A stretch of DNA of 11,231 bases from Mycobacteriaceae bacterium. GTDB lineage: Bacteria > Actinomycetota > Actinomycetes > Mycobacteriales > Mycobacteriaceae. Both the position numbers and the translations under genes were made by a program. Numbering within the stretch: position 1 is the first letter of the stretch; each line of letters opens with the position of its first letter. The stretch lies in NCBI GenBank assembly GCA_019242135.1, contig JAFAWC010000482.1:1-11231 (forward strand), given 5' to 3'. The notes under the pieces were generated by a model that ran no database searches, was not told the DNA's origin, and saw only the letters and a list, made by a program, of their open reading frames with translations. Below, in pieces: positions 2,958-8,627 of the stretch.

Positions 2958-2973
2958 TCGAATGTATGTTCGA
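2958..2973. promoter_or_regulatory. LexA (SOS) box in front of imuA'
   Basis: The + strand reads TCGAATGTATGTTCGA, matching the mycobacterial SOS box TCGAAC-N4-GTTCGA at 11 of 12 defined positions. On the imuA' strand the upstream half-site TCGAAC is perfect. It lies 35 bases upstream of the imuA' GTG and 63 bases upstream of the divergent reductase ATG. LexA control of imuA'-imuB is established in mycobacteria. Whether the same site affects the divergent gene is open. Confidence 0.93.
2961..2966 (-). promoter_or_regulatory. Candidate -10 element of imuA' inside the LexA box
   Basis: The minus strand reads TACATT (TANNNT type) within the LexA box. Transcription would start near 2954, giving a leader of about 30 bases that carries the AAAGGTG ribosome-binding site. 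LexA bound at the box would directly block RNA polymerase. No convincing -35 is visible. Confidence 0.4.
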
Positions 2974-5182: not shown

Positions 5183-5488
5183 TCAGCCCTTGCGGCGCAG
5201 CATCCATGCCGGTATCCAGTGGGTCACCGAACGGCTGTTGGCACCGTAGCTGACCGGATAGCTCACCAATCCCCACCAATGACCTTGCTCGCACAGGCCC
5301 CAGCAGCACAGCCGCCCCTCGACGACCTTGTGCATCTGCAGGCCGGCGGGGTGATAGGCGCCGCGGCGGTGGGGTTCCCGCGGGAAAAGCGCCCCAAGAT
5401 CGATCAGCACCAGGACCGGCGGCTCGACCGCGCGAAACGGATCGGGCACCGGCTGGCCGCTGTAGTTGATCCCCTGCAGATCACCCAC
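5183..5488 (-). CDS. Unrecognised small W/C/H-rich protein, candidate SOS-regulated gene
   Basis: 101 residues from GTG 5488. I do not recognise the family. There is no signal peptide and no clear membrane span; a short hydrophobic strand VEPPVLVLIDLGALF lies at 21-35. The second half is rich in Trp, Cys and His: CCWGLCEQGHWWG (61-73) places C61, C62, C66 and H70 in a possible metal-binding pattern, followed by VTHWIPAW (88-95) and a basic end MLRRKG. The GTG is chosen because TATGAT at 5495-5500 is correctly placed for a leaderless start, and a LexA-type box (5492-5507) covers that hexamer. The same frame extends to a TTG at 5545 (120 residues), which overlaps the stop codon of the upstream gene and would allow coupled translation. 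The stop lies 26 bases before guaA. Codon use and composition look coding, but the protein's existence is an inference. Confidence 0.68.
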   Translation of the reverse strand: MGDLQGINYSGQPVPDPFRAVEPPVLVLIDLGALFPREPHRRGAYHPAGLQMHKVVEGRLCCWGLCEQGHWWGLVSYPVSYGANSRSVTHWIPAWMLRRKG

Positions 5489-5491
5489 GGT

Positions 5492-5507
5492 TCGATCATA
5501 CGTTCGA
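5492..5507. promoter_or_regulatory. Second LexA (SOS)-type box
   Basis: The minus strand reads TCGAACGTATGATCGA. Compared with TCGAAC-N4-GTTCGA, 11 of 12 defined positions match, with a perfect upstream half-site and one mismatch in the downstream half, as in the imuA' box. It ends three bases before the GTG of the 101-residue protein and covers that gene's candidate -10. It could be a chance match, but its position is what a repressor site needs. Confidence 0.72.
5495..5500 (-). promoter_or_regulatory. Candidate -10 element for the small unknown gene
   Basis: The minus strand reads TATGAT, five of six matches to TATAAT, followed by six bases (CGAACC) and the GTG at 5488. The seventh base is the G of the start codon, giving a leaderless message. 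It lies inside the LexA-type box. The palindrome GGTTAACC at 5515-5522 occupies the spacer/-35 area, where no standard -35 is seen. Confidence 0.5.
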
Positions 5508-5541
5508 TTAGGCCGGTTAACCCCGGGATGAAGCGGCGGCG

Positions 5542-6594
5542 TCAATCGTTGTGACCGTGGCTGCCTCGCAGCTTGGCGGCGCGCTTGAGGTCCTGCTGGA
5601 ATTTCGCCTCGCGTTTTTCCGCAGCACGAGTATCGCGCTCAGGCAGCTGCAGCTGATCTTCGGCCGGCATGCCCGCCTGTAACTCGCGTCCCCGCTCGAG
5701 TTCCGCGTCTAGCTCCGCACCGAATAGCAAGGCAACGTTGGTGATCCACAACCACAGCAAGAAGACGATCACCCCGGCCAAACTGCCGTAGGTCTTGTTG
5801 TAGCGGCCGAAGTTGGCGACGTAGGTGCCAAACAGCAGCGACACGATGATCCATACCAGGATCGCCACAGCCGCCCCGACGCTGATCCAGCGAAACTTTG
5901 GCTGTCGCACATTAGGTGTTGCGTAGTACAAAATCGCGACAGCCACGATGACAAAGCCCAAGATGACGGGCCATCGGGCGATGTTCCAGACCGTCAGCGC
6001 CACGTGCCCCGCACCAAGAGCATCTCCGATCGCTTTGGCCACCGGACCGCTGACGGCCAACATCAACCCCACCGCGCCGGCCATGATCAATCCGCCCAGG
6101 GTGAGCAGCAGCTGAAGCGGCCGCAGTTTCCAGACCGGCCGGCCCTCGGGGATCTCATATATCCGGTTCATCGCCCGGCCGAACGCCCCGACGTAGCCCG
6201 ATGCCGACCACAAACCGCCGACGATGCCGGCGATCAGCGCGGCTCCCGCCGACGGTGAATTCACCAGTTGCTGGATCGGGTCCCGCACGGTATCGGACAC
6301 CGAATGTGGACCCAACTCACCGACGATCTGCAGCACCGTGTCGGTGGTGCGCCTACCTTGCCCGACCACCCCGAGCAGCGACACCATCACCACCAGCGCC
6401 GGAAACACCGATAACACAGCGTAGTAAGTCAGTGCGGCAGCCAGGTCAGTGCATTGATCGCGAGAAAATTGGCGGGCGGTGCGTCGCAGCACATAGAGCA
6501 CCGACGGCTTGGTCAAATCGGTTGGTGACTCCGGCTTCAGCGGATCGTTCGGGCCAACCGAAACATTCTCCTGGGACGGCACAGCCGCGGACAT
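5542..6594 (-). CDS. YihY/BrkB-family (UPF0761) inner membrane protein
   Basis: 350 residues. It is a multi-pass membrane protein of the YihY/virulence-factor BrkB family, whose molecular function is unsettled; the old RNase BN name for E. coli relatives was a misassignment. About six membrane segments are visible near 50-76, 117-137, 159-181, 207-225, 236-258 and 270-293. Family motifs are AALTYYAVLSVFPAL (52-66), ASGYVGAFGRAMNRIYE (131-147) and YGSLAGVIVFLLWLWITN (269-286), then GAELDAELE. The first ~30 residues are polar. The last ~55 are highly charged (AAEKREAKFQQDLKRAAKLR) and likely cytoplasmic. The start is ATG 6594; a purine-rich GAAGGGG at 6607-6613 is a rather distant Shine-Dalgarno, so a different start is possible. 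Its stop overlaps the alternative TTG start of the small gene that follows. Confidence 0.9.
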   Translation of the reverse strand: MSAAVPSQENVSVGPNDPLKPESPTDLTKPSVLYVLRRTARQFSRDQCTDLAAALTYYAVLSVFPALVVMVSLLGVVGQGRRTTDTVLQIVGELGPHSVSDTVRDPIQQLVNSPSAGAALIAGIVGGLWSASGYVGAFGRAMNRIYEIPEGRPVWKLRPLQLLLTLGGLIMAGAVGLMLAVSGPVAKAIGDALGAGHVALTVWNIARWPVILGFVIVAVAILYYATPNVRQPKFRWISVGAAVAILVWIIVSLLFGTYVANFGRYNKTYGSLAGVIVFLLWLWITNVALLFGAELDAELERGRELQAGMPAEDQLQLPERDTRAAEKREAKFQQDLKRAAKLRGSHGHND

Positions 6595-6894: not shown

Positions 6895-8627
6895 CTGACC
6901 GGCTCGACCGGCTCGATGGGCAGCCGACGCAGCGCCCCGGGCGCATCCGCGGGTACCGCCGGATGCTGGGGCGGGATGGGGTCGAGCCGCCGGTAGGGAT
7001 CACCCTGGCGCGGTCGTAGGTCGGTCTCACCCTTGTTCGGCCACAGCGATGCCGCGCGCTCCGCCTGCGCGGTGATCGAAAGCGACGGGTTGACACCAAG
7101 ATTCGCGGAGATAGCCGCGCCGTCGACCACCGACAGCGTCGGGTAGGCATACACTCGGTGGTAGGCGTCGATGACGCCGCTCTGGGGGCTGTCGCCGATG
7201 GCCGCACCCCCGAGAAAGTGCGCGGTCAGCGGAATGTTGAACAGCTCACCCCATGTCCCCCCGGCGACGCCGTCGATCTTCGCGGCGATCCGGCGGGTCA
7301 CCTCGTTGCCGACCGGGATCCAGCTCGGGTTGGGTTCGCCGTGGCCCTGCTTACTCGTTATCCGTCGCATCCCCAACTTGGTGCGCCTTGTAAATGTGGT
7401 GATGGAATTGTCCAGATTCTGCATCACCAGCGCGATCATCGTCCGCTCGCTCCAATGCCGCGCATTGATCATCCGCAGCGTGTCGCGCGGGTTCTTGCCG
7501 GCCTCTTGGAAGAACTGCTTCCAGCGCGGCACGTCGGTGCCCTGCGGGCCCGCGCCGTCGGTCATCAGCGTCTGCAACAGGCCCATAGCGTTGGAGCCCT
7601 TGCCGTAGCGAACCGGCTCGATATGAGTGTCCGACGTCGGGTGAATCGATGACGTGATCGCCACCCCGTGCGTCAGATCCAGGTCGGGGCTGACCTTGAA
7701 TCGTCCTGCGCCGACAATGGATTCCGAGTTGGTCCGAGTCAGCACGCCCAGTTTGTCGGAAAGCTTCGGCAGCTTTCCGCGGTCACGCATCTTGAACAGC
7801 AGCTTCTGCGTGTTATATGTCCCGGCGGCCAACGTGAGATGGGAAGCCGTGAACGATTTCTTCTTCCTGCGCAGCCAGCGGCCTGTCACGACGGTGTCGA
7901 CGCGCCACGTGCCATCGGGCAGCTGTTCGAACCCCGTCACCGTTCTCATCGGAAATACCTGCGCCCCCGCCCTTTCCGCGAGCCCCAGGTAGTTTTTTAC
8001 CAAGGTGTTCTTGGCGCCGTAGCGGCAGCCCGTCATGCACGAGCCGCATTCGATACAGCCGGTCCGGTCGGGTCCCGCTCCGCCGAAGTACGGGTCGGCC
8101 ACCGTCTTGCCCGGGGTCTTTTGCTGGTCCGGACCGAAGAACACACCAACGGGTGTCGGCACGAAGGTCTCGCCGACCCCCATCTCGTCGGCGACCTCCT
8201 TAACGACGCGATCAGCGTCGGTGAACGTCGGGTTGTTGACGACGCCCAGCATGCGCTGTGCCTGCTCATAGTGCGGCATCAACTCCGCACGCCAGTCGGT
8301 GATCTGGGACCACTGCCGGTCGGTGAAGAACGGCTCCGGCGGCACGTAGAGGGTATTGGCGTAGTTCAGCGAGCCCCCACCGACCCCCGCGCCGCCCAGG
8401 ATCATCACATTGCGCAGCAGATGAATGCGCTGGATGCCGTACATGCCGAACTTCGGCGCCCACAGGAACTTGCGCAGGTTCCACGACGTTCGGGCGAATT
8501 CGTGGTCAGCGAAGCGGCGGCCGGCCTCGAGCACACCGACGCGGTAGCCCTTTTCCGTGAGCCGGAGGGCGGTGACGCTGCCGCCGAAACCCGAACCGAT
8601 GATGAGGACGTCGAAGTCAGGCTCCAT
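6882..8627 (-). CDS. choD: ChoD, GMC-type FAD oxidoreductase (putative cholesterol oxidase)
   Basis: 581 residues, complete. It belongs to the glucose-methanol-choline oxidoreductase family and corresponds to Rv3409c; members oxidise alcohols, here presumably sterols. Seen: FAD dinucleotide fold DVLIIGSGFGGSVTALRL (6-23) with LEAG (33-36); the second FAD contact GGAGVGGGSLNYANTLYVPP (78-97); His470 in LTAHFLGG; and the C-terminal VVDGAAISANLGVNPSLSIT (500-519) with Asn513, the His/Asn pair typical of this family's active site. Unusual for GMC enzymes is C191-x2-C194-x2-C197-x3-C201 (CIECGSCMTGC). There is no signal peptide. The 50-residue C-terminal tail is Pro/Arg-rich and low in complexity. 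A true 3-beta-hydroxysterol oxidase activity is disputed for mycobacterial ChoD. The ATG at 8627 lacks a clear Shine-Dalgarno. The gene follows guaB3 after 66 bases and a strong inverted repeat. Confidence 0.95.
   Translation of the reverse strand: MEPDFDVLIIGSGFGGSVTALRLTEKGYRVGVLEAGRRFADHEFARTSWNLRKFLWAPKFGMYGIQRIHLLRNVMILGGAGVGGGSLNYANTLYVPPEPFFTDRQWSQITDWRAELMPHYEQAQRMLGVVNNPTFTDADRVVKEVADEMGVGETFVPTPVGVFFGPDQQKTPGKTVADPYFGGAGPDRTGCIECGSCMTGCRYGAKNTLVKNYLGLAERAGAQVFPMRTVTGFEQLPDGTWRVDTVVTGRWLRRKKKSFTASHLTLAAGTYNTQKLLFKMRDRGKLPKLSDKLGVLTRTNSESIVGAGRFKVSPDLDLTHGVAITSSIHPTSDTHIEPVRYGKGSNAMGLLQTLMTDGAGPQGTDVPRWKQFFQEAGKNPRDTLRMINARHWSERTMIALVMQNLDNSITTFTRRTKLGMRRITSKQGHGEPNPSWIPVGNEVTRRIAAKIDGVAGGTWGELFNIPLTAHFLGGAAIGDSPQSGVIDAYHRVYAYPTLSVVDGAAISANLGVNPSLSITAQAERAASLWPNKGETDLRPRQGDPYRRLDPIPPQHPAVPADAPGALRRLPIEPVEPVSSAG

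Follow-up and report, generated by a model that had tools for sequence, protein, structure and literature searches.

The 11,231-nucleotide stretch of DNA analysed here (the window) belongs to a draft Mycobacterium genome (G000; 724 contigs, 84% complete), and a small open reading frame on its minus strand raises the question of whether a genuine gene lies there and whether LexA controls it. Gene order on that strand is guaB2, guaB3, choD, a YihY/BrkB membrane protein gene, the ORF (5183–5488), guaA, imuA′ and imuB; between guaA and imuA′ the plus strand encodes an F420-type reductase. An earlier note had read a 101-residue frame behind a LexA-type box, and both readings were borne out. The ORF encodes 101 residues from a GTG start (coordinates include the stop), and the minus strand ahead of it runs TCGAAC GTAT GATCGA ACC GTG. 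The predicted LexA (SOS) box, TCGAACGTATGATCGA (5492–5507, minus strand), matches TCGAAC-N4-GTTCGA at 11 of 12 half-site positions, with a single mismatch. The −10 hexamer TATGAT sits within the box at 5500–5495, followed by six bases and the GTG at 5488, the leaderless arrangement that had been described. Taken together with the comparisons below, these features suggest that the roughly 100-residue protein very probably belongs to the bacterial DNA-damage (SOS) response, as a so far unstudied component.

A search of 5.8 billion proteins returned 73 relatives of the product, of which 50 were 97–109 residues long and most others longer; one of the longer ones (P0009) is so visibly because its start was called upstream of the box. 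The gene was present in 278 of 396 sampled Mycobacterium genomes, mostly as one match, and a wider profile found two or three copies in some genomes. Across 3,564 mycobacterial gene pairs (0.1 < dS < 0.8) the median dN/dS was 0.13, indicating purifying selection, and the window gene itself differed from the L002 copy by dN 0.16 and dS 0.79. On the strength of this ratio and the 73 homologous proteins, a spurious ORF was rejected, and 5183–5488 was assigned as a coding sequence of an unnamed small-protein family.

The box by itself says less. The window held 14 sites with at most three mismatches against 5.5 expected, and the whole genome held 34 sites with at most one mismatch against 17 for a reversed control pattern, about twice as many. 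A lone one-mismatch site is evidence of little force, so cross-species conservation has to decide. We assembled 111 mycobacterial loci (that of the window, 80 of named genomes and 30 from a genus search, the genomes partly overlapping), which gave 89 distinct upstream sequences. The results revealed a conserved, sharp-edged island of 16–17 bp ahead of the gene, TCGAACRTATGATCGA-N3-RTG. The exact TCGAACRTATGATCGA lay at −19 to −4 in 83 of the 89 distinct upstreams, and a LexA box within one mismatch lay within 60 nt in 86, while the reversed half-site control pattern reached four mismatches at best, in 7 of 89. Between −19 and −4 each base carried 1.5–2 bits of information, the R at −13 excepted (1.1); values were 1.1 at −20 and less than 0.5 farther upstream. 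Position −20 (5508, minus strand) is A in the window and T in 74 of 89 distinct upstreams. Among the 80 named-genome loci, 77 had at the start a box with no more than one mismatch, compared with 21 such boxes elsewhere in 467 kb. By eye, among the matches listed, the exact 16-mer was present in 42 of 45 sampled genomes that have the gene and in 1 of 15 that do not. The island was kept across several different gene neighbourhoods in Mycobacterium. Box, −10 and start spacing were retained together with the gene in most relatives, and the outcome that the earlier note had named as contrary to its idea, a frame kept with the box lost, did not apply to most copies. As in known members of the LexA regulon, the predicted operator is close to TCGAAC-N4-GTTCGA, lies over the promoter or start, and is conserved with the gene in relatives, exceptions existing.

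The same alignments bear on the translation start. Of the 89 distinct mycobacterial upstreams, 88 had an xANNNT hexamer 6–7 nt ahead of the start, and none had a Shine–Dalgarno-like tetramer (GGAG, GAGG or AGGA) in the last 20 nt. The predicted leaderless start thereby has the two marks of a leaderless gene, a −10 at 6–7 nt and no Shine–Dalgarno sequence. The frame stays open upstream to a TTG at 5545, which overlaps with the stop codon of the preceding YihY gene. We judged this extension (5489–5545, minus strand) untranslated from homologue starts and upstream conservation: only P0009 and P0023 of 23 homologues reach upstream of the GTG at 5488, and the DNA beyond −20, at less than 0.5 bits per base, speaks against translation. 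Control by PafBC was likewise rejected. The PafBC (RecA-independent) regulon carries a conserved motif about 8 nt upstream of the −10, and positions −29 to −21 held at most 0.44 bits in the 89 distinct upstreams. A leaderless start has a precedent within the SOS system, as M. tuberculosis LexA is described as translated from its own transcription start (PMC2897130), and the spacer RTAT agrees with the motif given as MKWMTCGAAMRYWTGTTCGA in PMC4181829.

Copies without a good box were found as well. The exceptions among the 80 named-genome loci were L002 and L012, with two mismatches each, and L072, with four. In L072 (M. nebraskense), whose gene start lies at position 91 near the contig end, the left half-site is broken and the −10 and gene are retained, possibly a natural escape from LexA or else a contig-end effect. 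The M. bohemicum locus (L038) has a partly duplicated promoter, with an intact box at −36 and a second element, TATGATCGA, at the start. Sixteen genomes selected because they were odd, had several copies or did not have the exact element yielded 26 distinct genes, 15 with a box of at most one mismatch near the start, 5 with two mismatches and 6 with neither. L177 and the extra copies L181–L183 of genome G541 had no box of their own. The exact 16-mer was also seen at about position 994 of L137, from genome G007 (70% complete), in which the gene was not found.

Beyond Mycobacterium, we fetched 11 of 21 non-genus places found at order level and 7 of 17 plasmid records. All 18 of these loci had, near the start, a box with at most one mismatch, perfect palindromes being found in L140, L146, L148 and L156; one of the 18, on an M. 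alvei plasmid (L150), is a close relative at 65% identity. The box began no more than 21 nt from the start in 17 loci, and in L146, which has no hexamer at the leaderless spacing, it lay 28 nt ahead of the first GTG in frame. At class level, where the start position is not fixed exactly, 7 of 8 loci had a box near the expected start, L177 being the one without. In 19 distant chromosomal windows of 5–16 kb, 18 boxes with at most one mismatch lay at the gene and 2 elsewhere in 268 kb. The family is also carried on Rhodococcus, Nocardia and Nocardioidaceae plasmids and on M. abscessus prophages. In the Nocardioidaceae plasmids (3 of the four records found), the single box in 14.3 kb lay directly before the gene in 3/3. 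Eleven M. abscessus prophage records held a relative; in the nine fetched the box was always at −8, and in eight it was perfect. A prophage-type query gave 38 viral-contig loci; after the truncated L286 was dropped, the remaining 37 represented 29 distinct alleles, which overlap in kind with the M. abscessus prophage records. The box lay at −8 in all 29 and was perfect in 28, with no other box in 113 kb; L287, examined apart from this set, had one mismatch. In profile comparisons the main profile was linked with the Nocardioides group at P = 94.6% and with the prophage group at P = 86%, and the Nocardioides-type search alone returned 841 proteins. In four M. abscessus prophages (L185, L188, L190 and L192), the family member was observed near WXG100 polymorphic toxin cassettes, not far from a prophage end.

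The relation of box to promoter differed among these groups. In Mycobacterium and in L139, L140, L141, L144, L145, L147 and L150, the box lies over the −10 and the start follows 2–5 bases behind it. In L142, L143, L148, L149, L151–L156 and the prophages, the box contains the start codon. In the Nocardioidaceae plasmids, read by eye, the box runs into the first bases of a TANNNT, which stands seven bases before an ATG. An xANNNT hexamer stood 6–7 nt ahead of the start in all 25 distinct prophage upstreams and in 15 of 17 distant upstreams, a count biased by starts chosen partly by the hexamer. As the position of the palindrome shifts between the −10 and the start codon, the shared feature is the LexA operator. 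Common to all are a LexA palindrome and a leaderless start; this speaks for LexA as the regulator, the off-consensus A of the mycobacterial copies notwithstanding.

That A, which replaces T in the GATCGA half-site and departs from the LexA consensus, is itself conserved in 87 of 89 mycobacterial upstreams, and a weaker LexA site or another repressor is therefore possible. Another repressor could read the conserved TCGAACRTATGATCGA variant in mycobacteria, with LexA incidental; the conservation of the A favours this, as does the reported resemblance of the E. coli ArsR motif to the mycobacterial SOS box (PMC8151990). We nevertheless consider it very unlikely, because perfect LexA palindromes occur with homologues elsewhere, many of them in another register, because the GATCGA half-site also occurs in mycobacteria at lexA-chiZ and whiB2-fbiA (neighbours read in L133 and L138, names by eye), and because the A also fits the −10 (TATGAT). 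The overlap of the island with this −10 could instead mean that a strong conserved promoter yields the palindrome as a by-product and that no regulator binds. Such a reading is hardly credible, since TCGAAC is conserved outside the hexamer and the box of the prophage and Rhodococcus types lies behind the −10, on the start codon. LexA control remains our preferred reading.

Upstream of fbiA, TCGAACATRTGATCGA, with this off-consensus half-site, was observed in four mycobacterial genomes (L130–L132 and L138), L138 also having a divergent whiB2. The lexA-chiZ intergenic region (L133–L136, neighbours read in L133) contains several LexA-like sites, one with a GATCGA half. An SOS box is documented at whiB2-fbiA in M. 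tuberculosis (PMC4181829), and four SOS boxes are reported for lexA (PMC4181829, PMC8151990). PMC4181829 infers that LexA activates whiB2 rather than repressing it; a GATCGA half-site therefore need not mean repression there.

We then considered the protein itself. Its conserved core comprises a Val-Asp-Leu segment, G-x-L-x-x-W, G-x-W-x-G-x-V-x-Y and W-V-P-A-x-x-L-R. The earlier note had pointed to a CCxxxCxxxH cluster and several Trp residues. The cluster failed as a family feature, both Cys being gone in distant members. Conservation of these residues held in part: Cys62 and Cys66 are invariant in 23 sequences, whereas the first Cys and the His vary, and Trp63 is invariant in wide alignments. 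One or both of Cys62 and Cys66 are missing in single mycobacterial copies (P0055, L200, L202 and L203). A zinc-binding Cys/His protein was rejected, as the ligands are not conserved across the family. The alignments (A3, 111 rows; A4, 89 rows) were hand-picked, with long, short and odd proteins (among them P0153–P0159) omitted; one of the excluded homologues, P0153, carries a precomputed PF08751 assignment. The claim that no family could be assigned agrees with our searches, in which no Pfam or NCBIfam match rose above its curated cut-off. Weak Pfam matches each occurred in at most 4 of 111 members, the best being DUF2554 in one member, below cut-off; NCBIfam and PADLOC gave weak matches in single members, and PDB sequence searches gave nothing below E 0.18. 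The nearest catalogued group is phrog_37248 (PHROGs v4, unknown function), matched by the Rhodococcus plasmid protein L151 over residues 1–101 at E 3.4e-08; the window protein itself had no match to this unannotated PHROG. The description of the gene as undescribed is consistent with this picture, in which curated matches and convincing PDB matches are absent and an unnamed PHROG is reached only by distant members. Among the titles and abstract openings that searches of an open-access library listed, none described such a family, and mention in a regulon table of a subscription paper is possible.

A LexA box at imuA′-imuB, noted earlier as lying nearby, was confirmed by pattern search at 2958–2973 (minus strand; context only), the imuA′ box being the sole other one-mismatch site in the window. 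Nearness to imuA′-imuB proved specific to the window's own lineage rather than general: L002 and L014 have guaA and imuA′-imuB surroundings as in the window, and no neighbour gene of the window was present in the flanks (at most 3 kb, often shorter) of 125 of 127 relatives' loci. A functional link to guaA or to the window's imuA′-imuB was rejected, since the neighbourhood is not kept in most relatives. A place in the ImuA′-ImuB-DnaE2 mutasome was not supported either, as probes for imuA′ and imuB found no constant linkage (exceptions L002, L014 and G541). In G541, two copies (contigs L222 and L223) follow an imuA′-like gene (NF058630) with a 4-base overlap, and the order LexA box, imuA′-like gene, family member was found at 8041–9239 of L222 and 7253–8401 of L223. 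The L222 product scored 143.7 bits against the ImuA′ family cut-off of 65, and a ParB-like gene follows the family member there; the L223 imuA′-like gene is interrupted, its pieces lying in three frames. Two of L181–L183 have no box of their own because they follow an imuA′-like gene with an upstream box. Among the family neighbourhoods searched, such coupling was found in G541 only, and the link of imuA′ to the family is only a hint.

Judged from the sequence comparisons, the locus is highly likely to be a stand-alone SOS cistron that is LexA-repressed, damage-induced and leaderless. We infer LexA binding, repression, induction and leaderless translation from established knowledge of LexA and RecA. 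A LexA dimer on 5492–5507 would cover the −10 and block transcription; DNA damage would lead to RecA-stimulated LexA cleavage and free the promoter; and the transcript would run from about 5488, its GTG being translated without a leader.

What the protein does can be proposed only tentatively. It may be a damage-response accessory acting on RecA/ImuA′-type recombination or translesion synthesis, and we place such a damage-tolerance role weakly ahead of two others. Rv2719c/ChiZ and DivS are SOS cell-division brakes, and SOS control, small size and occurrence on chromosomes and mobile elements would suit a checkpoint factor of that kind; a brake is unlikely, however, as no match to any named family rose above cut-off and one genome instead couples two copies to imuA′. 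We are similarly doubtful that the protein serves chiefly mobile elements and was domesticated on chromosomes, modulating, once induced by the SOS response, host recombination, defence or the exit of prophages. Its relatives on Rhodococcus, Nocardia and Nocardioidaceae plasmids and M. abscessus prophages, and its occurrence as a single gene accompanied by its own operator in diverse settings, would fit that role, but the mostly single copy in 278 of 396 Mycobacterium genomes suggests a lasting chromosomal one. Extended beyond the damage-tolerance accessory that we weakly prefer, it is a speculative thought that a large actinobacterial family of portable one-gene SOS modules, each with its LexA operator set into the leaderless start, provides a new RecA/ImuA′-dependent modulator of damage tolerance, deployed by chromosomes, plasmids and prophages. 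As a short, leaderless and nameless gene, a likely effector of this type could be missed. The family offers a directly testable candidate for the damage response of these bacteria and of the mobile elements they carry, and it illustrates cleanly how a LexA operator can be sited on a start codon in nature.

Actinobacterial SOS regulons have been defined in a few species, among them M. tuberculosis, M. smegmatis and Corynebacterium. The mycobacterial LexA regulon, which includes imuA′-imuB, dnaE2, recA, lexA and Rv2719c, shares with the present locus the operator type TCGAAC-N4-GTTCGA and, at lexA-chiZ and whiB2-fbiA, the GATCGA half; the family differs in being nameless, in having its operator on a leaderless start and in having relatives on plasmids and prophages. 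RecX, DinI, ChiZ and DivS are likewise SOS-induced proteins of modest size, whereas this family is without a match in any library searched. The SOS regulon of Streptomyces has also been defined (PMC9380542), and that source provides a plasmid hypothetical gene under LexA that, by its description, resembles those reported here: pvnz_37140 of S. venezuelae plasmid pSVJI1, for which the SOS box is listed at −14 and which shares an operon with a DNA polymerase IV gene.
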